A DNA stretch of 50,781 nt, from NCBI GenBank assembly GCA_017466825.1, contig JAFTTJ010000015.1, positions 1 to 50,781 on the forward strand, in the 5' to 3' direction. The DNA is from Clostridia bacterium. Its GTDB lineage: Bacteria; Bacillota; Clostridia; Christensenellales; Borkfalkiaceae. The notes under the pieces are model-generated. The model saw only the letters and a program-made list of their open reading frames with translations, was not told where the DNA came from and did no database searches. The translations under genes were made by a program, and so were the position numbers. Shown here one piece after another: positions 3,235-32,934 of the stretch (positions are counted from its first letter, which is position 1; each line of letters opens with the position of its first letter).

Positions 3235-6200
3235 TTAAATAAACCAGCGTTTTTTGATAATTGCAAAGAGTATTGCGCCAAGTCCTACGGTTGCGGTAGC
3301 AACGGGGATAGCGACGTTTGCAACCGAATCGACTACGTCTTTTACGACGGGGGCGAGTTCGGCTTCGTTTTGAGCGCAATATTCGTTATAGCGGGCTAAA
3401 AGGTCGTAGTATTCGGTTAAATCGAGAACTGCTCTATCCTTGGGAAGAAGGGCTTCGATTCTATCCTTTAAATCTACGAGAGCGCCGATATTTTCGGCTT
3501 TAACTTCTTTGTCAAACTCGTTGATTTCAACTTGGATATCCTGTACGAGTTTGCTTGCGCCTGCAAGTTTTAACGCGCTAATTTCAGCCTTTGCAGAAGT
3601 AACTTTTTGTACGTAAGACTCCCATAAATCTTGGTCTACGCCGTAGTCGGCGGAATCTTGCGTGATTGCGTTAAGGTAAGCGATAGCGTCGTTTACGAGT
3701 TTTTCGTTTTGAAGGGTAATCTCTTCAATTTTTGCAACTTGTTCGGCTTTTTCAAGGAAGTTTATCATGTTGTTTTCCATAGCGACGTAATCACTTCTCT
3801 TGCTATGCTCTACCTTGCCGAAATACGCTTCGTAAACGATTGCGTCGTAGCCTACGATATCTTCGTTGGCGGGTAAAATCATTTCGATGGGGGATTGTTT
3901 GCCCTTTTCCACTTCAACTTTACCTGCCGCGCCTTTAAAGGTGTAGTAGCAAAGTTCAAAACCGAAAAGGTCGAAGTGGGGATGCAATACGCCGTAGCCG
4001 GGATCGGTTTCTTCAACGACGAATTCAGAATCGTAGAAAGATTCGAGCGCGGGGGCGTTTACCGACTTAAATTCTACCATTTTAAGGTTTTTGTAGCCGT
4101 AGAAAGCGTAGTTGCCGATAAGTTTTAAAGAGTCGGGAAGAACGATTTTAGTTACGTTGGGGTTTTCGTTACCTGCGTAAACTTCAATTCTGTACGTGCC
4201 TTCTTTTACGACGAGTTCACCTATTTGCTTTGCGGACGGAACTGCCGATAAAAGCAAGTTGCCCGACTTCATAGTCGTGTAAATAACGCCGTCTACAAGT
4301 TGAACGTAATCGTTTACAACAACGTCGTTATTGCCGTCTTCGTCAACGAAATCTTTTAAAGATACGCATCCTACGAAAGCCATTGCGTCAAGGTGAGTAA
4401 GGGTTTTAGGAATAGTAAACCCTGTAAGTTTTCTGTTACCGTCGAACGCGCCTTCGTAAATTCTTTCAACGACGGGGGCGTCAAAAGTATAAATATAAGT
4501 TGATTGGAAGGCGTAAGAGCCTATTTCAACGAGATTGGGGGCTTTGAAATCGCCTTCAAGGTAAGTGCCTGCAAACGCTCCGCTACCTATTGCGATAGCC
4601 GACGAAAAGTCTACTACTTCGATAGGCGTAGGATCTGAAGAACCTGCAACGAAACAGTTGTCGCCAAAGTACTCTACGCTTTCGGTATTTACGCTAGTTA
4701 AGGACATACAAGCCGCAAAAGCGTACTGTCCGATAGTTTTTATCGTGCTTGCAAGGGTAACCGATCTAAGATTTGAACAGTAGGTAAACGAGAAATCGGG
4801 TACTTTATCTAAAGAAGACGGAATAGTGATTTCGGTAAGTCCCATACAGCCCATAAACACACCGTCGCCGAGATAAACTAAGGTTTCGGGAAGGGTTATC
4901 GTGTTAAAGGTGGGCGCCATATATTCGGGATCGTTATTTGAGAACGCGCCTTCGTAAATCTTTTCAACTACGGGCATATCTACGTAATTCAAGGTAGAAC
5001 AGTCGGCAAAGGCGTACGCTCCGATTTCGGTTACGTTTGAAAGGGTTACCGCCTTTAACGCAGAGCAAGCGTAGAACGTTTGATCTGCAATTTTACCGCT
5101 GTATGCCGAAAGGTCGATATTTTGAAGGGCTATATCTTGGGCAAAACACAATTCTCCGAAAACTACTCCGCCGAGAGCGGGCATGTTTACGGTGGTAAGA
5201 TACGAGCATTCTCTAAACGCTCCAATACCAAATTGCGCGTTTTTGCCGATAGTAACGGTCTTTACGTTAGAGCGATAGAACGCTCCGTCGCCTACGATTG
5301 CGCCGTCTGCGATTTCAACGTTTTCAATCGACGTAGACGAAAAAGCGTATTCGCCGATTTGGGTTACTTTATTTAAGTTGTTTACTACCGCAAGGTTTGA
5401 CGAAAGGTTAAACGCGTGCGGAAGAATAACTATTTGCTTATCTTGGGGGAAGGTTACCGCGGTGAGAGTTTGGCTATCCGCAAAGGCGTATTCGCCGATA
5501 GTTAAGTCGCCTACCACCGTGAGCGAATTTATCTTTGCGCCTGCAAACGCGCTACTTGAAATAGTAGTTACCGTTTCGGGTACGACGTAATCACCGAAGT
5601 CTACCCCACTTGCCGCGTACACGATAGTATCGCCCGCTTTATTTAAAAGCAAGTTGCCTTCTACTTTATAGTAGGGGTTTTCGCCGTCGACTTCAAAAGT
5701 CGTGAGCGACGTGTTTTTAAAGATAGGTCCAAACGCAGATAAGAGTTTGGTTTCCTTGCCTAAAACTATTTTTTCAAGAGAATCACACTCGAAAAAGGCG
5801 TATTCGCCAAGCGTAAATTCGCTGTTTGGAAGAGCGACTTGTTTAAGCGACGGACAGTCGTAAAAGGCTTGGTTTTCAATCCTTTCAACCTTGGCAAACG
5901 AAACGTTTTCAAGTACGGGGCATTCGCAGAACGCGCCGTAGCCTACGCTTACTAAATCATTTAAGATATTTACGGTTTTAAGGTTTGCGCATTCTGCAAA
6001 ACAAAACTCGGGGATGGTATCCCTTTCGTAAATATCCACGCTCTCTATTCCACATTGAACGAACATTGCTTCGGCAAGTTTTGTATGCTCGCCTAAAACT
6101 ACCGCTTTAAGTGAAGTACAACCGCTAAAAGTCGTCTTGCCCGTATTGCGAAGGGCGGTAAGGTCGACGCTTTCAAGCGAAGTACAGTTTTTGAACGCGT

Positions 6201-9200
6201 TCATACCTAACGAATAGGTCTTTACGAGATTTGCGCTCTTTAAACTTTCACAGCCTTCAAACGCTCTCGCGCCGATTGCTTCTACGTTAGAAAGGTCGAT
6301 ATTTTCGAGTTTTGCGTCGTTATAGAAAGCAAATTCTCTAATAAACTTAATAGAATCGGGAAGGGTTATCGATTTAAGCCCCGTACAGTTGTAGAAAGCG
6401 TATTTTTCAATATATTCTACGCCGTCGGGCACTATTACTTCGGTAACCGTGGTGTTGGTTGCAGGGATTTTGTTTGCGTCGTAATCGTCTTCGGGGAGTT
6501 CCATCGTCGTGTCAGTATCGTATAGACAGAAGGCGTAAGCCGCTATATATAAAATACCTTCGTCGTCGGGAATAACTACCTTTCCGCCAAGACCTTTATA
6601 GGCTATGAGTTGACGGTTTTCAATTACGAATTCGCTCTTAACTATTACCCTTAAACTAGTTTCGATATTAGAGCCGTCTACCGAAAGGGTTATGGTTGCT
6701 CTACCTTCCTTTTTAGCGATAACCTTGCCGTTTGCGTCTACTTCGGCAATGAGCGGGTTACTGCTTTTGTAGGTAAGCGTATAATTGTCTTCCGCATACC
6801 AAGGATAAACTTGGTGGAAAAGTTTAATTTGTTCACCGGGGTAAAAACTTACGGTGGGTTGAGCGTTTAAGTAAATTCTACTGCCCGTTTCGCCTATTTC
6901 GCTAGTTTGAGCCGCGCGAGAATATGCAAACAAGGTTTCAAAATAACTAAACCTTAACCTTTTCATTTCGGCGTCGTCCGCGCCCGAAACGAAGGAGTCG
7001 GACTCTTGTTCCGCCGTCCTGCGCTTTACGTTTACGGTAACTATCGCCTTTTTGCCGTCCATGCCTTCGGTAACGGTTATGAGCGTTCTGCCCGTGTCAA
7101 GGCACTTTGCGTAGCCTTGATTTACTTCTACCTTCTTTTCGTTTGAAGAAGTCCAAGTCAAAGTTCTAAAATACTCTCTGTCTTCGTTGAAGGTAGGGTC
7201 GGAAGTAGCAAGATAGGGGGTAAGGTCGATTACGTCGCCTACGTACGCGTTTACCGTTTGAATTTCAGTACTTTCAAAGTTGCCGTCGGTAGTAAACTTA
7301 AAGTCGCCTTTAGTACCGGGAAGTTGGCAAAGATAAATGTTTGAGTTGAGCGCGTAGTCTTCGATTGAAAAGGCGAGCGCGTTGGTGATGAGTTCGTCTT
7401 CACCGATATCGTCTAACATATCCGTAATTTCAAACTTAAAGGTGGTGTTTGCGCCCTTTTCGCCGTATACGGGGATTGGGTTATCGGTAAGGAAGGTGTA
7501 CGAAGACGACGAAGAAAAGGCTATCGGGTATACGCTTTGTACGTAGTGATTGTCGTAAACCGTCATAGTTAAGTAATAACGGTCTTTTTTAAGCATTCTG
7601 TCGTATTCTTTTTCGTAGGTTACGTCTTTTATGATAGGCGCTTCGTTGTCGAGAGTGAAATCAAACGAGAACGAATTTCTCTTATTGGTAACGCTACCGT
7701 CGTTTTCGTAGTCGAGTTTACCCGTCATAGTAAACTGGTATTCTCTATTGTTGGTAAGTCCAAGCTTTGCCGACTTAAACTTTAAGTCGTCGATATAGGG
7801 GTATTGAGTGCCGTGGAAATAAGCCTTTCTCGCATTGTAGTCGGTGTGCGACCAAACTACTTCACCCGTAACTTTATCCGTAACTACGTACTCCATAGTC
7901 TTTGCGCTACGCAAAAGTCCCGTATAGATAGAGTAAATACCGTCGATAGTGCCGAGATAGTCGGAAAGGGCTATCTTATCTTCGCTAGCGGGGATTGCGT
8001 CGTACTTGCTCGTATCGATATCGTAAAGGTACGAGCCGAGCGGAATTATGTAGTTATAGTAGTACGAACCGTAGGGGGTTGTTGCAACGTAGTCGGCTTT
8101 AATCTTGTCTTCGTCGTCGATAGACGCGTCGTGCGCTTCGGACTCTACTTCGTAGAAAGTCTTATCGAACATAGGCGCTTCCGACCAGTCGCCGTAAAAG
8201 GCAAGGAAGGGGATATTGAGCGAAACGTCTTGCTCGTCAACGGCGTTGAGTTTTACGAATCCTTCTACGTACATACCGTAGGGGAAACTCTTTTCGATAT
8301 ACGCCCTATCTTCTGCGGAAAGGGTGTAAGTTACCGTAACGGACGCAGTTGCGTTTGCTAAAACGGTGATTTGCTTTCCGCTCAAAGTACCGCCGTCGCC
8401 TACTTTATAGGTTGCGTCGCTGTTTAAAACGTACGACCTTTCGGCTACGAAATCTTCATCCGACGTAGAAACGCTTTCGGTAAGGCCTAAAACTTCAAGG
8501 TCGTAACTGATAGGCGAGGAAGAAAGGTTTTTAACGTTGAACGTCATTTGGTATACGCCCGTTCTTTGCGGATCGTCGCCGAGTTCGAGTTTGGTTTTAT
8601 CAATTCCGTCTACGGTGAGATACGCTCTCGTCGTAACCGAATTTTTTAAACTTGCCAAACCTGCGCCCTGCTTTCTGGGCGAATACGCGTTACCCTGTTG
8701 GTTAAGCACTATGGTAGCCGTAGACATCATGAGTTGGTTGGTCATAGCCGTCATTTGCTTGGGGGTAAGGTCGTAGTTATCTTTAAGATATTGTCTAATT
8801 AAAATTACTAAACCGCAAAGGTTGGGGGTTGCCATCGAAGTACCGCTTACTTCGTCGTAACCGCCACCGGGAACGGACGATTTAATGTTACCGCCGTGAG
8901 CGGTGATTTCGGGCTTTAAGCCGAGCGACGGGGTGGGGCCCCAACTCGAGAAGTCGGACATAAACGGACCTGCCTTTTGGCTCAAGGTAATCTTTATAGT
9001 ACCTTCTTCCTTTTCGGCGAGAATTTCACCGTCCGTTTTAGAAATAGAAACGGTGGGGATATGGTCGGTTTTACCCATTGACATCAAGATATCGCCTTCA
9101 ATATTATTATAAATAATACATGCGACTGCGCCCGCGCGCTTTGCTTGAAGCGCCTTGTCTTCAAAGGTGTTGTCGCCACGCCTTACGAGAGCGATTTTAC

Positions 9201-10701
9201 CTTCAAAATAACCCGTGGGATAGGAATTGTAGTTACCTTCCTTGCCAACGCCGGGCACCGTTACGTATTCGAGTTCGAGTTCGGCGTCTTTGGCTAAGTC
9301 AAGGTCTTCGTAAATTTCGGCGAAAAAGTCGTTGGGTTCGCCGGTGATGTCGTTAGATTCGTTAAAGAATACTATTTGCGAGCCGTTTGCAACGAGATAA
9401 TTGCTCTTAGTACCGCTGATTGACGCTACCGAGAGAGCGGCTTCGTACGAAGACGGCGAGCCTACCGTTCCCGAGTCGGGGTTGGTAACCTTGTTTGTAT
9501 TGCCTTCCGCTCCGCCGTACGCCGAACTGTAATCGTTACTTGCGGCGGTGATAAGGCTTATGCCCGCTTCGTAAATAGAATCGTAAACGTCGTTTAAATA
9601 GTCGTTGTCGGCTTCTCTTGCAAAACCGCAGGAAGCGCCTAACGACATGTTGATTGCGTCTACGCCGAGTTTTACGGCGTCTTCCAACGCGCATAATATA
9701 TCTTCGGTTTTACCGCCCGTATCAATATCGGGGAAAACCTTCATTAAAACTAATTGAGTATCGGGAGCAATACCTTGAATAACCGTGTCTTCACCGCCGA
9801 TAATACCCGCTACGTGAGTTCCGTGTTCGCTATCGTAGGGGAAAACGTCGGTATCCTTGCCTGCGTAGTCGTAGGTAAAGGGAATTTTATTGCTATACCA
9901 TACGTCCGAAAGTTCTATGTTTTTCGTAGTTTGAGCGGCGATAGTCGTGGGGAGTTTACTAGCGATAGTCTGCTGGTTAAACATCATAGTTGCGCCGCTA
10001 ATCGGGTGGTCGTTGAATACCGAGTGGCTACAATCAAATCCCGAGTCAAGTACGGCAACCGAAGTGCCAACGCCCGTGTAGTCTACGCCCGTGGGCTTGA
10101 AAATACCCGTGTCGTAGATATCGACTACGTTTTCAATAGCCGAGCCTTCTACCGACTTGGGGCGAGCGAAGGTATCCGAAAGTATTACCGACTTTATATC
10201 CGCTCTCTTTTCAAGCGCGGATATATTTCCGTAAGTGGTATTTACCGCAACGCCGTTTAAAATCGTGGTATAATTTGCTTCAACGCTATCAATAAGTCCG
10301 TCTATAAGTAGATTTCTGACTAATCTGTTCTGTTTAACGGTCAACTGACTAGCCATGTTTTTACCAACGGGGGAGTTGGCGAAATCGCCTACCTTTCCGC
10401 CTGCTACGGACGAAACGTACGCGTCTACTATAGAGTCGTCTTGCAAGGTTAAAATAGCAACGACGGGGTCGTCGGATTTATATCCGCCGTTTTCTTTAAG
10501 GTATTCCGCCTTAATTTTATCCAACCTGTCTTCAACCGCAATTTTTGCGTCCGTCTTTACGATTTCAAGGCGGTTGGCGTCGGCTACCGAGCCACCGCTC
10601 GTTCCGTTTTGATTATTAGCGCCCGTATTAGCGTTTGCGCAAGCAAAACACGAAAACGCCATCGTAAGCACCAAAAGTAATGAAAGAATTTTCGTCTTCA
10701 T
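3235..10701 (-). CDS. Giant cell-surface subtilase (S8) with PA domain and BspA-type LRR_5 repeats
   Basis: 2488 aa. The hydrophobic signal peptide has a weak lipobox-like CFAC. Residues about 80-180 resemble an I9-type propeptide. The S8 catalytic residues are all present: Asp219 (VLDSG), His293 (HGTHVAG), the oxyanion Asn389 and Ser622 (GTSMATP). A PA-like insert lies at about 465-570. A lactocepin/C5a-peptidase-like region follows (PFLAFYGDWS), then two Big2-like domains (about 1160-1360). About thirty LRR_5 repeats of the type IGxYAFxxCxxL run to about residue 2200, then a helical segment, one membrane helix and a basic tail (KKRWFI). There is no LPXTG motif. The start has AAAGGAG upstream. 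Its place directly after the opp genes suggests it supplies peptides for import. The LRR region could bind host or dietary glycoproteins (inference). Confidence 0.93.
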   Translation of the reverse strand: MKTKILSLLLVLTMAFSCFACANANTGANNQNGTSGGSVADANRLEIVKTDAKIAVEDRLDKIKAEYLKENGGYKSDDPVVAILTLQDDSIVDAYVSSVAGGKVGDFANSPVGKNMASQLTVKQNRLVRNLLIDGLIDSVEANYTTILNGVAVNTTYGNISALEKRADIKSVILSDTFARPKSVEGSAIENVVDIYDTGIFKPTGVDYTGVGTSVAVLDSGFDCSHSVFNDHPISGATMMFNQQTIASKLPTTIAAQTTKNIELSDVWYSNKIPFTYDYAGKDTDVFPYDSEHGTHVAGIIGGEDTVIQGIAPDTQLVLMKVFPDIDTGGKTEDILCALEDAVKLGVDAINMSLGASCGFAREADNDYLNDVYDSIYEAGISLITAASNDYSSAYGGAEGNTNKVTNPDSGTVGSPSSYEAALSVASISGTKSNYLVANGSQIVFFNESNDITGEPNDFFAEIYEDLDLAKDAELELEYVTVPGVGKEGNYNSYPTGYFEGKIALVRRGDNTFEDKALQAKRAGAVACIIYNNIEGDILMSMGKTDHIPTVSISKTDGEILAEKEEGTIKITLSQKAGPFMSDFSSWGPTPSLGLKPEITAHGGNIKSSVPGGGYDEVSGTSMATPNLCGLVILIRQYLKDNYDLTPKQMTAMTNQLMMSTATIVLNQQGNAYSPRKQGAGLASLKNSVTTRAYLTVDGIDKTKLELGDDPQRTGVYQMTFNVKNLSSSPISYDLEVLGLTESVSTSDEDFVAERSYVLNSDATYKVGDGGTLSGKQITVLANATASVTVTYTLSAEDRAYIEKSFPYGMYVEGFVKLNAVDEQDVSLNIPFLAFYGDWSEAPMFDKTFYEVESEAHDASIDDEDKIKADYVATTPYGSYYYNYIIPLGSYLYDIDTSKYDAIPASEDKIALSDYLGTIDGIYSIYTGLLRSAKTMEYVVTDKVTGEVVWSHTDYNARKAYFHGTQYPYIDDLKFKSAKLGLTNNREYQFTMTGKLDYENDGSVTNKRNSFSFDFTLDNEAPIIKDVTYEKEYDRMLKKDRYYLTMTVYDNHYVQSVYPIAFSSSSSYTFLTDNPIPVYGEKGANTTFKFEITDMLDDIGEDELITNALAFSIEDYALNSNIYLCQLPGTKGDFKFTTDGNFESTEIQTVNAYVGDVIDLTPYLATSDPTFNEDREYFRTLTWTSSNEKKVEVNQGYAKCLDTGRTLITVTEGMDGKKAIVTVNVKRRTAEQESDSFVSGADDAEMKRLRFSYFETLFAYSRAAQTSEIGETGSRIYLNAQPTVSFYPGEQIKLFHQVYPWYAEDNYTLTYKSSNPLIAEVDANGKVIAKKEGRATITLSVDGSNIETSLRVIVKSEFVIENRQLIAYKGLGGKVVIPDDEGILYIAAYAFCLYDTDTTMELPEDDYDANKIPATNTTVTEVIVPDGVEYIEKYAFYNCTGLKSITLPDSIKFIREFAFYNDAKLENIDLSNVEAIGARAFEGCESLKSANLVKTYSLGMNAFKNCTSLESVDLTALRNTGKTTFSGCTSLKAVVLGEHTKLAEAMFVQCGIESVDIYERDTIPEFCFAECANLKTVNILNDLVSVGYGAFCECPVLENVSFAKVERIENQAFYDCPSLKQVALPNSEFTLGEYAFFECDSLEKIVLGKETKLLSAFGPIFKNTSLTTFEVDGENPYYKVEGNLLLNKAGDTIVYAASGVDFGDYVVPETVTTISSSAFAGAKINSLTVVGDLTIGEYAFADSQTLTAVTFPQDKQIVILPHAFNLSSNLAVVNNLNKVTQIGEYAFSSTSIENVEIADGAIVGDGAFYRSNVKTVTIGKNAQFGIGAFRECSYLTTVNMPALGGVVFGELCFAQDIALQNIDLSAYSGKIADQTFYACSALKAVTLSNVTEIGAYAFADCSTLNYVDMPVVEKIYEGAFSNNDPEYMAPTFNTITLPETLVYLGDGVFMGCMGLTEITIPSSLDKVPDFSFTYCSNLRSVTLASTIKTIGQYAFAACMSLTSVNTESVEYFGDNCFVAGSSDPTPIEVVDFSSAIAIGSGAFAGTYLEGDFKAPNLVEIGSYAFQSTYIYTFDAPVVERIYEGAFDGNRKLTGFTIPKTLTHLDAMAFVGCVSLKDFVDEDGNNDVVVNDYVQLVDGVIYTTMKSGNLLLSAVPSAKQIGELVVKEGTYRIEVYAGNENPNVTKIVLPDSLKLIGNYAFYGYKNLKMVEFKSVNAPALESFYDSEFVVEETDPGYGVLHPHFDLFGFELCYYTFKGAAGKVEVEKGKQSPIEMILPANEDIVGYDAIVYEAYFGKVEHSKRSDYVAMENNMINFLEKAEQVAKIEEITLQNEKLVNDAIAYLNAITQDSADYGVDQDLWESYVQKVTSAKAEISALKLAGASKLVQDIQVEINEFDKEVKAENIGALVDLKDRIEALLPKDRAVLDLTEYYDLLARYNEYCAQNEAELAPVVKDVVDSVANVAIPVATATVGLGAILFAIIKKRWFI

Positions 10702-15420: not shown

Positions 15421-15437
15421 GTTTTTATATTAGTCTA

Positions 15438-21354: not shown

Positions 21355-21402
21355 GGTCTATTTAACTATATTTTTGCCAATAATCGACTTATAGGCGGCT
21401 AT

Positions 21403-21435
21403 TTACTGCTTTCTCCACACCATTTTGTCAATAAT
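21403..21435 (-). pseudogene. Displaced 3' end of a capG/wecB-type epimerase gene
   Basis: Read on the minus strand this gives IIDKMVWRKQ and a stop. The intact epimerase gene at 23967 ends VVDKMVWRKS and a stop. The DNA shares the 13-mer ACCATTTTGTCAA (21419-21431 and 23983-23995), and most of the differences around it are at third codon positions. No further epimerase sequence is seen upstream of it. It is therefore a remnant of only about ten codons, lying just beyond the end of the nuclease gene. Confidence 0.7.
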
Positions 21436-21479
21436 CCAAATCCGCTTAGCACCTAGCAAAATTCGTGTTTTCAACACGT

Positions 21480-23846
21480 TTAATCCTTGTTTTTATTTCT
21501 TTTTATCGCCCTTCTTCTTTCTTCCCAGCATTTCGGACAACCTGCTCCCTTGCTTCTACTATTTATTATCGCTTCCCATTCGTGCCCAAACTCGCATTGC
21601 CACCATACTTTTTTATTTGTACCACGCATTACATCTCTAGGAGTTAAATCGCCATTTTTTGTAGGATGCCATTCTTTCGCTAATATTGGGCTAGTAGTTT
21701 CTAAATCATTCTCCCCCGCTAAAAGTTTTTGACCTGCGCAATAAGGGCACCCTCGGCCATTGCTCCTACTTGAAATAGTAGCCATCCATTCATGTCCTTT
21801 AGAACATTTCCACCATGCTTTTTTATTTGTTCCACGCATTACGTCTCTAGGAGTTAAATCGCCATTTTTTGTAGGATGCCATTCTTTCGCTAATATTGGG
21901 CTAGTAGTTTCTAAATCATTATCCCCCACCAAAAGCTTTTGACCTGTGCAATAAGGACATTCACAGCCATTGCTCCTACTTGAAATAGTAGCCATCCATT
22001 CATGTCCTTTAGAGCATTTCCACCACACTTTCTTATCAGAACCTGCGGTTAGTTCAGTTGGTGCAAATTTTATATTTTTGCCAAAATTCCATTCTTGAGT
22101 AAGTCGCGGATTTATAGTTGCCAAGTCATTATAACCCACAAAAACTTTTTTCCCAGCGCAAAACGGACAACCACCACCTTTATTCCTGGCAGCAACTGAT
22201 GCTTTCCATTCGTGCCCACATTTACCATTCCACCATACAACTTTATTAGAATTTGCCGTAACGCATGTAGCTGAAATTTTTCTATTTTTTGTAGGGTGCC
22301 ATTCTAATGCAAGTGGTAAATTGGCAGTTCTCAAATCGTTAAACCCTTCTAATACTTTTTTGCCACCACAATATGGACAGCCTGCTCTTTTTCTACTATT
22401 TATTGTTGCTTCCCATTCGTGCCCAAACTCGCATTGCCACCACACTTTTTTGTTTGAACTATACGAAACATGTTCAGGTTGTAATTTCCCGTTTTTAATA
22501 GGATGCCACTCTTTTGCAATAGACGGATATATGGCATGCAAAGATTTTTCTTTTTCGCTTTCAATATACTGCTCATAAATCTTAAACCTATCTCTTGAAA
22601 CATCAATATCTACATCTAAAAACAATTTAGTAAATTTTTTTATATGATTTATTAATTTATAAATAGTATTTGATAACTCCTTTTCGGAATCTCCCACCCT
22701 ACAATATATAACATTGTTTTCTAAATCATCCCTTATACTCTCTTTTGTCTCTTTAATCCGCAATAAAAGTATCCCGTTTTCTTTTAACGTTTTTTCTTTA
22801 TCTAATTCTCTTTTCTTCGCAGCGCTCCCATTATGAAAATACAAACCGTCGTACTCAACACCAATTTTATATTCTGGTAAATACACGTCTATTTCCGTTT
22901 TAGAATTAAGCATATAGCGATTACGCGCGGAATAAATTTTTCTTAAATAGAAAAATATTGCCTGCTCTGGAAAACTTGTTCTCATCTCGTCCGCACATTG
23001 GGGACATCCACAACCTGTACTTCTTTTATTCACGCTTGATACCCACTCGTGTTCTTTATTGCATAACCACCAAACTCTTTTATTTGAACCCACAGTTACC
23101 TGCTGGGGCGTAAAGTTTCCATTTTTTATGGGATGCCATTCTTTGGCAAGACTCGGTAAAACTGTTGCAAGATCGTTAAACCCCACAAGAACCTTCTTCC
23201 CTATGCAAATAGGACAATTATTTCCATTACCCCTATTTGATATTTTAGCTTTCCATGTGTGACCTTTTTCGCATTGCCACCAAACGCTATTTCCGTTTCC
23301 AACGGTAACGTCCGTTGATTTTAATTCCCCGTTTTTAATCGGGTGCCATTGTTTCGCTAAGTCAGGTCTTACCGTTGCCAAATCATTAACGCCAACCACA
23401 ATTTTATGACCTGAACAAACGGGGCAATTTGCTCCCGCTGTTCTACTGTTTATAGCCGCTTTCCATGTGTGACCCTTTTCGCACTGCCACCAAACTTTTC
23501 TACTTGAATTTATTGTGACATCAATGGGTGTCAAATCCCCATTTAAAGTGAGGTGCCATTGCGATGCTAATTCGGGATTATTTTCATGCAACGATCCTCT
23601 TTTTTTTATAATGTTTTTTAATCGGCTTTCTTTACGCTGTTTTTCTGCACAAATAGGACATCCTCGCCCCTTACTTCTATGATTAGGATTGGAAACCCAC
23701 GAATGTCCATTAACACATTTCCACCAAACTTTTTTAGCTGAACCATACGTAATCTTTTTAGGATCTAATCCTATCGCATTATTTTTATCCCAATCCCATT
23801 CGCTCATTAATTCTTGATTATCTATAATATATGTTTTTTGTCTCAT
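21480..23846 (-). CDS. Zinc-ribbon-array protein with an internal Vsr/DUF559-like nuclease
   Basis: 788 aa. Nine modules with a period of about 70 aa follow the pattern WHPxKNG...VWWxCxxGHxW...CPxC, like the treble-clef/zinc-ribbon DUF4379 family: four before and five after a core at about 288-405. The core has features of PD-(D/E)XK nucleases of the Vsr/DUF559 type: Glu294 (PEQA), Asp320, and EYDG at 331-334 with His338, then GILLLRIKE. Module 6 has its first Cys shifted (WWNGKCGHEW). The modules probably bind DNA (inference). The start has AGGTG close upstream. It shows no partner gene. Its DNA uses fewer ACG/GCG-type codons than the opp genes, suggesting transfer. It could be a defence or homing-type nuclease; neither is shown. 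Confidence 0.85.
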   Translation of the reverse strand: MRQKTYIIDNQELMSEWDWDKNNAIGLDPKKITYGSAKKVWWKCVNGHSWVSNPNHRSKGRGCPICAEKQRKESRLKNIIKKRGSLHENNPELASQWHLTLNGDLTPIDVTINSSRKVWWQCEKGHTWKAAINSRTAGANCPVCSGHKIVVGVNDLATVRPDLAKQWHPIKNGELKSTDVTVGNGNSVWWQCEKGHTWKAKISNRGNGNNCPICIGKKVLVGFNDLATVLPSLAKEWHPIKNGNFTPQQVTVGSNKRVWWLCNKEHEWVSSVNKRSTGCGCPQCADEMRTSFPEQAIFFYLRKIYSARNRYMLNSKTEIDVYLPEYKIGVEYDGLYFHNGSAAKKRELDKEKTLKENGILLLRIKETKESIRDDLENNVIYCRVGDSEKELSNTIYKLINHIKKFTKLFLDVDIDVSRDRFKIYEQYIESEKEKSLHAIYPSIAKEWHPIKNGKLQPEHVSYSSNKKVWWQCEFGHEWEATINSRKRAGCPYCGGKKVLEGFNDLRTANLPLALEWHPTKNRKISATCVTANSNKVVWWNGKCGHEWKASVAARNKGGGCPFCAGKKVFVGYNDLATINPRLTQEWNFGKNIKFAPTELTAGSDKKVWWKCSKGHEWMATISSRSNGCECPYCTGQKLLVGDNDLETTSPILAKEWHPTKNGDLTPRDVMRGTNKKAWWKCSKGHEWMATISSRSNGRGCPYCAGQKLLAGENDLETTSPILAKEWHPTKNGDLTPRDVMRGTNKKVWWQCEFGHEWEAIINSRSKGAGCPKCWEERRRAIKRNKNKD
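21554..21960 (-). repeat. Near-identical module DNA within the nuclease gene
   Basis: DNA of modules 8 and 9 is nearly identical over most of the front half at an offset of exactly 210 bp (for example 21611-21710 against 21821-21920). The back half of module 9 (21554-21617) instead matches module 5 (22393-22456), including an identical run of about 35 bp. Module 9 is therefore a mosaic of an 8-like front and a 5-like back. Confidence 0.85.
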
Positions 23847-23863
23847 ATTTCACCTAAAAACTA

Positions 23864-23911
23864 AAAATCTTTACTTCTAATGGTTTTATCCTACCAAAAA
23901 GTAAAGATTTT
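23864..23911 (-). terminator. 13-bp inverted repeat, possible terminator after capG
   Basis: AAAATCTTTACTT at 23864-23876 and its exact complement AAGTAAAGATTTT at 23899-23911 flank a 22-nt loop. On the minus strand the stem is followed by TTTTTAGTTTTT, so it may end transcription of the polysaccharide operon. The following gene starts only 18 nt later, so it could also act as an attenuator or operator for the nuclease. Confidence 0.6.
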
Positions 23912-23966
23912 AATAAAAACTATAAATAAGCATTTGCAATAGCAAAGTCGATAAAACTTTAAATTT

Positions 23967-25157
23967 TTAAGATTTGCGCCATACCATTTTGTCAACAACG
24001 CCGGTGTACGATTGAATAATTTTTACCACCTTGGTTGAAACGTTTTCTTCAACGTAATCGGGCACGGGGATTCCGTGGTTGCCGTCTAAGGTGAGATTTA
24101 CCGCAGTTTCAACGGCTTGCAAAAGACCTTTTTCGTCAATGCCGGCAAGCACGAAACAAGCCTTGTCAAGGGCTTCGGGGCGCTCGGTGCTAGTGCGAAT
24201 ACAAACAGCGGGGAAGGGCTTGCCTACGCTCGTAAAGAAGGAACTCTCTTCAGGCAAAGTTCCGCTATCTGAAACGACGGCAAAGGCGTTCATTTGCAAG
24301 TTGTTGTAATCGTGGAAGCCCAAAGGCTGATTTTGTATCACCCTTTTATCGAGTTTAAATCCGCTTACTTCCAAACGCTTTTTGCTTCTTGGGTGACAAC
24401 TGTATAAAATGGGCATATCGTATTTTTCCGCCAACTTGTTAATTGCCGTAAATAAGGAATTGAAGTTCTTTTCGGTGTCGATATTCTCTTCTCTATGCGC
24501 TGATAAAAGTATATATTGTTTAGGTTTAAGCCCAAGTCTTTTTAAAACGTCGCTACTTTCGATTTCGCTAAGATTAGCGCGCAAAACTTCTGCCATAGGC
24601 GAGCCCGTTACGTAAGTCCTTTCCTTAGGAAGTCCGCAATCGGCAAGATATCTTCTCGCATGCTCGGAATACGCCAAATTTACGTCCGAAATAATATCGA
24701 CTATACGGCGGTTTGTCTCTTCGGGCAGGCACTCGTCCTTGCACCTATTGCCCGCCTCCATATGGAAAATCGGTATATGCAATCTTTTTGCCGAAATAGC
24801 CGAAAGGCAACTGTTGGTATCCCCTAAAATAAGCAGGGCGTCGGGTTTGCACGCCGACATGAGCTTGTACGAACAGTTGATAATATTGCCAACCGTTGCG
24901 CCCAAGTCGTCGCCAACGGCGTCCATATACACTTCGGGGTCGGCAAGTTTTAAATCTTTAAAGAAAACGCCGTTTAAATTATAGTCGTAATTTTGCCCCG
25001 TATGCGCTAAAATACAGTCAAAATACTGACGGCATTTGTTTATTACGGCTGCCAAACGAATAATTTCAGGTCTAGTGCCGACGATTATTAAAAGTTTGAG
25101 TTTTCCGTTTTCTTTAAATCTAACGTCAGAATAGTCCAATTTGATTTTTGATTGCAT
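23967..25157 (-). CDS. capG: UDP-N-acetylglucosamine 2-epimerase family enzyme CapG/FnlC
   Basis: 396 aa, normal length. It has the WecB-family motifs GTRPEIIRLAAV (about 27-38), the active-site stretch HMEAGNRCKDECLPEE and LSAHREENID. In UDP-N-acetyl-L-fucosamine synthesis the CapG/FnlC/WbjD enzyme performs the final C2 epimerisation. That role is supported by capE and capF in the same operon. AGGTGAA lies upstream of the ATG. It is the last polysaccharide gene; 120 nt later the nuclease gene begins. Its last codons are repeated beyond the nuclease gene, as noted at 21403. A plain UDP-GlcNAc/ManNAc epimerase is the alternative. Confidence 0.9.
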   Translation of the reverse strand: MQSKIKLDYSDVRFKENGKLKLLIIVGTRPEIIRLAAVINKCRQYFDCILAHTGQNYDYNLNGVFFKDLKLADPEVYMDAVGDDLGATVGNIINCSYKLMSACKPDALLILGDTNSCLSAISAKRLHIPIFHMEAGNRCKDECLPEETNRRIVDIISDVNLAYSEHARRYLADCGLPKERTYVTGSPMAEVLRANLSEIESSDVLKRLGLKPKQYILLSAHREENIDTEKNFNSLFTAINKLAEKYDMPILYSCHPRSKKRLEVSGFKLDKRVIQNQPLGFHDYNNLQMNAFAVVSDSGTLPEESSFFTSVGKPFPAVCIRTSTERPEALDKACFVLAGIDEKGLLQAVETAVNLTLDGNHGIPVPDYVEENVSTKVVKIIQSYTGVVDKMVWRKS

Positions 25158-31665: not shown

Positions 31666-32934
31666 TTATTTAATTTTTAAATCGGGAAGTCTTATACTTC
31701 CCCAGTTTCTTTCATCCCATACGATATCATCATCTTCTTGGACGATTTCAAAACTTAAACCATTTACGTTATCTAGATTAACGGTGCTTCCCTTTGAGTC
31801 TTTTTGGAACATAGTATAAATCGTAGTATACTGCCCCGGAATTAATGTTGACACGTCTATTTCTACACAAACCGTTCCACAGTCTCCATTTTTTCCTGCA
31901 TAAAAATCATAAAGCATTGCAGTTGCCACGGGCGTTCTATCACGCTTTAAAACTTCTATTCTTAAACACAAATTAGAAACGTCAGCTTCATTTTTCCACT
32001 TTAAACGAACGACTTGCTTTTCTTTTTTGGAAAACCTTATGTTGTCTCTATCAACGTAAGCCGTTTCAAGCAAATGAACTTTAATCCCCTCATTGAGAGA
32101 AAGGCGCGGTTCATTTTCCAAATTAAGATAAGGCGCTTCGTTTGAAACGATATCTAAATACTTTTCTATAGCTTTTTCAACTTCCCCATCAAAAACAATC
32201 TTACCATGATCCATAACCACGCATCTACTGCAAAGTTGACGAATAGTGCTCATATTATGGCTTACGTAAAGAATTGTTCTGCCCTCTTCTTTTGAAACTT
32301 CGCTCATTTTATTTAAGCATTTCTGTTGGAACTTCATATCTCCGACGGCTAAAACTTCGTCCATAACCAAAATTTCGCTGTCTAAATGAGCGGCAACGGC
32401 AAAGGCGAGTTTTACGTACATACCAGACGAATATCTTTTAACAGGGGTATCGATAAACTTTGAGCATTCTGAAAACTCTATAATTTGGTCTATTTTTTTA
32501 TCGACTTCGGCTTTAGTCATGCCGAGTATCGCGCCGTTTAGGTAAATATTTTCTCTTCCGGTAAGTTCGGGGTTAAAGCCCGTGCCGACTTCAAGCATGC
32601 TTGAAATACGCCCGTTTAAACCAATTTCCCCTTCGGTAGGACCGGTAACGCGAGATAAAAGTTTTAAAAGAGTGGATTTACCCGCGCCGTTGTGGCCGAT
32701 AATGCCTAATCTTTCGCCTTTATATACCGTCAAATCAATACCGTCAAGCGCCATAAACGTTTCGTTTTTGCCGTAGGTCTTTGCGCCTATTTTTGCATTG
32801 GGGTCTTCTTTTTTACGAATACGCGCCCACCAACTTTGAATATCCGCCATTAGCGTTCCGCCACCAATTACGCCTAGTCTATAGCGTTTTTTTAGATTAG
32901 AAATTTTTAATATTACGTCTTTTTCGCTATCCAT
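31666..32934 (-). CDS. wzt: Polysaccharide ABC exporter ATPase Wzt with cargo-binding domain
   Basis: 422 aa. The N-terminal 250 residues are an ABC ATPase: Walker A GHNGAGKST, signature YSSGM and Walker B ILVMDEVLAVGD. Residues about 270-415 form a C-terminal beta-rich Wzt_C-like domain, which in O9a-type systems recognises a terminal cap on the glycan before export. Its presence predicts chain-end modification of this polymer. It pairs with the permease gene 9 nt upstream. AGGTG lies before the ATG. Confidence 0.93.
   Translation of the reverse strand: MDSEKDVILKISNLKKRYRLGVIGGGTLMADIQSWWARIRKKEDPNAKIGAKTYGKNETFMALDGIDLTVYKGERLGIIGHNGAGKSTLLKLLSRVTGPTEGEIGLNGRISSMLEVGTGFNPELTGRENIYLNGAILGMTKAEVDKKIDQIIEFSECSKFIDTPVKRYSSGMYVKLAFAVAAHLDSEILVMDEVLAVGDMKFQQKCLNKMSEVSKEEGRTILYVSHNMSTIRQLCSRCVVMDHGKIVFDGEVEKAIEKYLDIVSNEAPYLNLENEPRLSLNEGIKVHLLETAYVDRDNIRFSKKEKQVVRLKWKNEADVSNLCLRIEVLKRDRTPVATAMLYDFYAGKNGDCGTVCVEIDVSTLIPGQYTTIYTMFQKDSKGSTVNLDNVNGLSFEIVQEDDDIVWDERNWGSIRLPDLKIK

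Follow-up and report, generated by a model that had tools for sequence, protein, structure and literature searches.

A 788-residue open reading frame (ORF) in a clostridial chromosome is probably a free-standing homing endonuclease gene of the EDxHD/Hef kind whose nuclease sits inside an array of repeated modules. The sequences examined support this assignment in five respects, namely the domain make-up of the protein, its conserved active-site residues, the split end of a neighbouring gene, a relative that is free of the insertion, and the tight edges of related genes in otherwise unrelated surroundings. From these same sequences we infer that the protein cleaves DNA, which site it targets, that its modules recognise bases and by which route the break is repaired. 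The DNA analysed, hereafter the window, is 50,781 nucleotides long and represents a whole contig of a 1.65-Mb genome that is 84% complete. The ORF has an ATG start and fills exactly the interval given in Table 1.

Table 1. Features of the ORF and its flanks, with positions in the window.
Feature	Positions	Strand	Basis
ORF, 788 aa: module array, nuclease core, module array	21480..23846	-	ORF call, Pfam and genome profile search
N-terminal array of four DUF4379 modules (Pfam stretches 23640-23810, 23406-23570, 23199-23360, 22989-23150)	22989..23810	-	family search
Predicted PD-(D/E)XK / EDxHD-type nuclease core, about residues 285-420 (E294, D320, E331, D333, H338, D/E347, K350)	22587..22994	-	alignment and profile matches
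C-terminal array of five DUF4379 modules (22359-22520, 22149-22313, 21939-22103, 21729-21893, 21525-21683)	21525..22520	-	family search
Tandem duplication of a 210-bp module unit, copies 93% identical (21595-21804 and 21805-22014)	21595..22014	-	sequence comparison
Short leader from epimerase stop codon to ORF start; long hairpin, fold z-score -2.6	23847..23966	-	fold calculation
Terminator-like hairpin directly 3' of the ORF stop codon; fold z-score -0.4	21464..21478	-	consensus match only
Intact 3' end of the UDP-GlcNAc 2-epimerase gene (..GVVDKMVWRKS-stop), upstream side of insertion	23967..24005	-	sequence comparison
Stranded second copy of the epimerase 3' end (..IIDKMVWRKQ-stop), downstream side of insertion	21403..21439	-	sequence comparison
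Non-coding sequence found immediately after the epimerase gene in insertion-free genome G001, here joined to the stranded end	21356..21402	-	comparison with G001

Nine DUF4379 modules flank a central core

Pfam assigned nine stretches of the ORF to DUF4379 (PF14311) above the model cut-off (total E 2.2e-173), and a family search of the whole genome returned the same nine stretches, at 66-87 bits each, and no other DUF4379 gene. An earlier interpretation made from the DNA letters alone, which we call the sequence-only reading, had described four modules before and five after a nuclease core, with a repeat length of about 70 aa, and both searches agree with this layout. The WWxC-GH-CPxC pattern that it proposed fits most of the modules; the exceptions are module 6, which reads WWNGKCGHEW and therefore lacks the first Cys, and module 4, which has EH in place of GH. 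All four presumed zinc ligands of the DUF4379 treble clef are kept in 579 of 618 modules from 90 proteins, module 6 of the window being short of one. The module scores together with this ligand conservation place the array far from chance. TALE and C2H2 zinc-finger nucleases likewise combine a variable number of like modules with a nuclease, and the treble clef of DUF4379 is consistent with the earlier suggestion that the fold class differs from both.

The core resembles that of EDxHD homing endonucleases

The central part of the ORF had been read as a Vsr/DUF559-like nuclease built on Glu294, Asp320, Glu331, Asp333 and His338, all of which are present. The window ORF itself gave a weak Pfam match in this region, to the REase family MTES_1575 (20 bits, cut-off 38). 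When a core profile of 11 sequences was searched against the PDB up to E 10, the sole match was 3r3p (E 1e-4), with the ..IE.(D/N)G.. and ..KD..K.. motifs matching in the alignment, and a profile of 87 sequences found 3r3p again (E 9e-5) with the module relatives mt-SAF33 and mS66 beside it. The title of the 3r3p deposit names a mobile intron protein, which we take to be the EDxHD homing endonuclease I-Bth0305I; on this assumption, the profile match indicates that the core is homologous to the I-Bth0305I catalytic domain. In the column of window His338, 3r3p has Ala, a point against the assignment, although the change may be an engineered one.

The 87 aligned sequences comprise fragments of 86 relatives plus the window, each with the order module-core-module. 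Glu294, Asp320, Glu331, His338 and Lys350 are found in all 87, as are S291, G334 and D419, while position 333 is Asp in 82 and Asn in 5 and position 347 is E in 54, D in 32 and G in 1; these counts come from a biased set, most of whose members were fetched by a scan with three short patterns containing some of these residues, of which the best 80 of at least 351 matching stretches were kept. We presume that E294, D320, H338 and the acidic position 347 correspond to the name EDxHD, in which case the first three are present in 87 of 87 sequences and D or E stands at 347 in 86. The sequence-only reading had named a lack of conservation of its core residues among homologues as evidence against it, and in this set the residues proved to be conserved. 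At E <= 0.01 the 87 fragments match MTES_1575 (65), DUF2726 (27), DUF559 (6) and Vsr (1), families that presumably belong to the PD-(D/E)XK clan. Each of the 87 also matches PHROG 3339 'homing endonuclease' and PHROG 559 'HNH endonuclease', with scores to which the modules within the fragments may contribute. Along with the profile match to 3r3p, these data support a predicted PD-(D/E)XK-type core of the Vsr/DUF559-like kind, as had been proposed.

The family is large and variable in module number

Matches were found in 15 of the 101 genomes searched, the genome of the window included. The bacterial branch is large, to judge by the number of stretches that the pattern scan returned, and its loci are labelled with several phyla. 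Open frames were searched in 17 loci from this genome and its relatives (the window and L039-L054), in 80 GTDB loci and in 80 viral loci. Ninety bacterial frames contained a core and at least two modules, and 87 of them, the window included, had modules on both sides of the core and passed the length filter. Homologues with different module numbers, which the sequence-only reading had advised looking for, were found, as an iterated model recognized between 2 and 11 modules in each of the 90 proteins. Among viral loci, 97 of 103 core frames had no module under the strict model, and the iterated model (E < 0.1) detected one to five modules in 25 viral frames. On these frame counts, the bacterial form carries its nuclease inside the array, whereas the published phage form carries it at the C-terminus. 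Members from one genus (the window, G006, G010 and G012) fell in four separate parts of the family tree, which is a quick tree with SH-aLRT support only.

The ORF splits the end of an epimerase gene

The gene upstream of the ORF, on the same strand and ending at 23967, encodes a UDP-GlcNAc 2-epimerase (Pfam Epimerase_2), and a 37-bp remnant downstream of the ORF reads as a second epimerase C-terminus. In G001, a 92% complete genome with no match to the ORF, the epimerase end and the sequence downstream of it are continuous, whereas in the window the same parts are split around the ORF (83% identity over 87 bp, E 4e-15). This insertion-free version of the site is known from one genome, and the sequence common to the window and G001 extends about 47 bp beyond the epimerase stop codon, after which the next genes differ, so that a broader rearrangement is possible. 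No module or core was detected at E <= 0.01 in 18 loci, comprising ten with flank orthologs from the genus and eight from other comparisons.

We also compared gene ends with flanks at the protein level. The window scored 47 and ranked second of 157 gene-end and flank pairs, and among 747 mismatched control pairs one scored 45 and none higher. First in rank was the relative L165 (score 91); in its flanks the 3' end of its upstream gene, a gene unrelated to the epimerase, recurs as a 64-bp copy (98%). The third, L149 (score 46), has a doubtful downstream ORF. A clear duplicated gene end was found in only two of the 157 tests, those of the window and L165. At the DNA level the two ends in the window reach a repeat score of 30 and are absent from the bracketing direct repeats described below, as they are too diverged for DNA repeat tests. 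Classical homing leaves no duplicated gene end; the epimerase 3' end occurs twice around the ORF, and the insertion is in this respect not a clean one.

Related genes have tight edges in unrelated surroundings

A second polymorphic site lies between gpsA and a PHP gene. Genome G010 carries a relative there, whereas G008 and G006 keep gpsA and the PHP gene with no relative between them; other inserts and short repeats are also present in this stretch. G012 likewise has a relative near gpsA. The absence of the gene from the matching site in relatives, expected of a homing endonuclease gene, was thus observed both at the epimerase end (G001) and between gpsA and the PHP gene (G008 and G006). Two further candidate empty sites were set aside, one for the relative on C81 of G042, where synteny is too weak, and one for the G006 relative, because its neighbouring gene family is multi-copy.

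Edges were compared in 48 chosen pairs, with at most seven aligned pieces shown for each. In L144/L153 (88% DNA identity) homology spans -59 to +35 only, in L107/L109 (88%) it runs from the start codon to +25, and in L105/L100 (82%) from the start to +13. These three pairs, with ends within about 60 bp upstream and 35 bp downstream, indicate movement as a gene of its own for the relatives concerned rather than for the window gene itself. Homology in L042/L039 (78%) extends from about -106 to the gene end or +13, L155/L145 have about 60-100 bp upstream in common, and L108/L109 have one more common piece 3 kb upstream. The near-identical L115 and L116 (99.9%) share -981 to +127 and probably represent one insertion. 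Most of the close pairs compared have no common flanking sequence.

Direct repeats bracketing the gene (E <= 1e-4) were found for 13 of 76 members versus 5 of 319 other long genes at the same loci (odds ratio 13, p 8e-7). A simpler repeat score gave 10/82 members against 9/356 controls at a threshold of >=35 (p 7e-4) and 6/82 against 7/356 at >=40 (p 0.02). The bracketing repeats are of mixed kinds, including gene ends, terminators, tRNA 3' parts and older repeat arrays. Those of L042, L044 and L048 lie in repeat-rich spots, the first two with a tRNA gene nearby, and were rejected as insertion scars; they look like older repeats that probably predate insertion. Terminal inverted repeats of the transposon type were not enriched relative to 660 and 643 control genes (p 0.12 and 0.16). 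L144 and L153 do have matching ends. An intron-borne gene was also rejected, since Rfam gave no match in the window and the scanned loci of eight relatives contained no intron family.

Comparison with phage homing endonucleases

Searches with tblastn found matches in 212 phage records, and the core alone matched 128, of which 41 are from Campylobacter phages. Among the matches listed, Campylobacter phages have up to 11 places each, often annotated as a homing endonuclease or Hef-like homing endonuclease. In Campylobacter phage CP30A, three 'Hef-like homing endonuclease' genes are situated around the ribonucleotide reductase alpha gene; the core is present in each of them, preceded in one by seven weak matches to the module (E 8e-6 to 0.016). 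Published accounts credit Hef with endonuclease activity and place its cleavage sites near the Hef gene itself (PMC3322345); it is also reported to cut nrdB (PMC2988022). We liken the ORF to Hef of phage U5 by description, its core and modules having been compared in the CP30A relatives. Like these genes it is free-standing, and it shares with them the core and, with one, weakly matching modules; however, theirs are phage genes, and the modules found in CP30A lie before the core only, whereas the window gene belongs to a chromosome and has modules to either side of its core.

The ORF also resembles I-Bth0305I, whose catalytic domain has been solved, in joining a Vsr-like core to a long multi-domain build (PMC3943268), but differs in that its core is central among nine DUF4379 modules and that Rfam detects no intron around it. 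Closer in composition are phage homing endonucleases described in 2025, which combine an EDxHD/Vsr domain with three to five CapR/DUF4379/DUF723-like modules proposed to bind DNA (PMC12350094). Both ingredients recur in the ORF, although the enzymes of that account have a C-terminal nuclease following the module array and reside in group II introns, with homologs mostly in group I introns, whereas the window core lies between four and five modules. Repeated zinc fingers of the related CapR/DUF723/DUF4379 type were described on homing nucleases in 2023, where module exchange was proposed to change targets; those enzymes differ from the ORF in having a T5orf172 nuclease domain (PMC10448857). The latter text mostly prints the DUF number as DUF4397. 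The sequence-only reading had called such an enzyme not well described, which, as far as these two accounts go, does not apply to module-array homing nucleases of phages (PMC12350094, PMC10448857) and does apply to the bacterial form with a central nuclease, of which we found no description in the open-access literature searched.

Neighbouring genes and the question of defence

The surroundings of these genes suggest selfish copying into new sites and not phage defence. The sequence-only reading had offered two options, a homing-type enzyme and a stand-alone defence nuclease. We regard the second, in which the arrays would recognise foreign DNA for the core to cut, as rather unlikely. The ORF is accessory and foreign-looking, as a defence gene might be, with a GC3 of 0.29 compared with 0.48 and 0.52 in two neighbour genes; tRNA or tmRNA genes are found close to several relatives (tRNA scan of 60 loci), and the neighbours of some encode Abi_alpha, Schlafen AlbA_2, NERD, Fic or PIN proteins. 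However, the sole PADLOC match of the ORF, to PDC-M01B, covers 34 residues, and nine of ten genes around it have no PADLOC match, the tenth being a 422-aa gene 8 kb away that matches mad3. No family among 734 neighbour proteins, taken from up to five genes on either side, occurs at more than 5 loci, and the one that reaches this number consists of serine recombinases. With neither a recurrent partner nor a PADLOC model over most of the length, a defence system was set aside as first choice. The absence of a partner methylase or toxin, stated in the sequence-only reading, is supported, and the census of homologues' neighbours that it had called for brought no recurrent partner to light. The annotation of phage relatives as homing endonucleases beside ribonucleotide reductase and the tight edges common to close relatives likewise argue against defence. 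The homing-type option, for its part, draws support from the split epimerase end, the G001 site that lacks the gene, those same edges and the enrichment of bracketing repeats.

Some relatives have defence-like or accessory neighbours, which we counted against the homing reading. Of 81 loci for which a downstream gene is listed, 23 have one on the same strand within 60 bp, but two of these 23 genes are themselves members of the family and the ORFs of some others are doubtful. Among 20 downstream genes selected for closer study, not all of them within 60 bp, four exceeded the Pfam cut-off (NERD, Schlafen AlbA_2, Abi_alpha and Trypsin_2), a second Trypsin_2, RES, AAA and Apea fell below it, and 12 had no match at E 0.01; ten of the relatives' downstream genes without a Pfam family had no PADLOC match (0/10). 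As a control, five of ten chosen upstream genes had a Pfam family, and this group included Fic, DUF2513, NERD, GMP synthase and PIN7. The trypsin-like neighbour of the G006 relative is found in one of 15 genus genomes. A fixed cargo gene downstream is not supported, because the downstream gene is not the same one in the near relatives L039, L041 and L042. As six bracketing repeats enclose the downstream gene (L042, L044, L118, L121, L160 and L162), it may on occasion be co-transferred with the nuclease gene.

We consider it improbable that the ORF encodes a domesticated or regulatory DNA- or RNA-binding protein whose nuclease now serves a host function. The module relatives with solved structures are the mitoribosome-associated mt-SAF33 and mS66, which presumably sit on RNA, and genes can stay intact long after mobility is lost; against this, the six active-site positions are kept in 87 of 87 sequences, with Asn allowed at 333, and the match in so few of the 101 genomes argues that this is not a fixed host gene. 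Least probable is that recombination in a variable polysaccharide locus split the epimerase end with the nuclease gene as a passenger, since although the ORF stands at the end of a polysaccharide-type operon, several of whose genes are nearly as low in GC3, and the window and G001 have different genes beyond the site, a near-perfect 64-bp duplicated end of an unrelated gene also surrounds L165 and most close pairs share no flanking sequence.

A putative homing mechanism

If the ORF is a free-standing homing endonuclease gene, its two treble-clef arrays would each lie along the DNA to one side of a long target, and the Vsr-like domain in the centre would cut there. The cut chromosome would then be repaired from a gene-carrying copy, so that the gene would be copied in. 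Here the enzyme would target the UDP-GlcNAc 2-epimerase gene at its 3' end, with the intact end staying with the gene and the old end left as the 37-bp remnant. Because the epimerase end is duplicated, repair may have been one-sided, the epimerase side being copied from the donor together with the gene and the other side being joined end to end.

Module-array homing endonucleases are known from phages; the bacterial branch places the nuclease in the middle of an array whose length is variable. Its many natural combinations of an array with an insertion site could allow a recognition rule to be deduced. Annotators should note that the label 'zinc-ribbon domain-containing protein' in bacterial records may in some cases stand for a selfish mobile gene and not for one involved in defence.

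DNA binding by the DUF4379 modules would be the basis of any such rule. More speculatively, and we think this doubtful, the arrays could form a natural modular DNA-reading system in which each 70-aa module would read a short step of DNA, the two arrays would clamp half-targets around the nuclease, and targets would change through duplication or swapping of modules. Such a system would fit the 2-11 modules per protein, the fresh 210-bp duplication and the module positions that vary, and, if real, would make the family a new source of re-targetable nucleases. We know of no rule for DUF4379 that relates one module to particular bases. Modules within one protein differ at 59% of positions, and matching modules of close relatives at 22% (53 module pairs, drawn from 8 protein pairs that overlap). 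The gap between the two measures is largest at 22 positions, among them 25-33 and 48-51, which we propose as candidate DNA contacts, as a lead only because the measures correlate at 0.75; the 22 also take in 1, 2, 5-7, 11, 23, 44 and 60.

Elsewhere in the same genome, the core profile found one further weak partial match (E 3e-4), which lies on another contig and contains one internal stop.

Sequence elements flanking the ORF and its relatives

Two elements lie near the ORF (Table). Downstream lies the motif CAATAATCGACTTATA, which matches the window a second time, at 15428 with two mismatches, and for which sequence comparison identified copies carrying few changes in four of the genomes compared (G001, G002, G006 and G008); it is possibly a regulatory or repeat sequence specific to the genus. 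The leader of the ORF contains a long hairpin of approximately 15 pairs or more, which may serve in termination or control.

Repeats were also found at other loci. Several genomes from the genus carry short repeats beside gpsA, spaced approximately 200 bp apart. At L126, from a Paludibacter MAG, the gene is flanked on both sides by a direct repeat for which a search of Rfam returned no match. In L144 and L153, a pair of relatives, inverted sequences match by eye between the two gene ends (scores 32 and 24), and these end sequences seem, on visual comparison, to covary from one copy to the other; the family in general does not show this pattern.

Features of the window, the compared loci (L-numbers) and a plasmid
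Feature	Location	Strand	Detail
Motif CAATAATCGACTTATA	window 21378-21393
Leader hairpin	window 23862-23912		fold z-score -2.6
mad3-matching gene	window 31666-32934	-	422 aa; PADLOC, E 6e-20
Short repeats beside gpsA	L283 near 3986-4431; L281 near 4040-4284; L286 near 92-292
Direct repeat bracketing gene	L126, flanks of 9158-10648		220 bp, 92% identical
Tandem relatives	L154 8453-13552		two or more
Tandem relatives	L112 8268-12762		two or more
Rhodococcus plasmid module array	NZ_CP054209.1 256331-257728		example

Tandem and plasmid-borne relatives

Relatives occur in tandem at two loci, and those of L112 adjoin a serine recombinase gene. When plasmids were searched with the core alone, matches were confined to one Lactobacillus and one Pontibacillus plasmid. 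Rhodococcus plasmids carry related module arrays, at several places per plasmid, together with a protein annotated as DUF559.

Separately, the polysaccharide-type operon of the window includes the mad3-matching gene.
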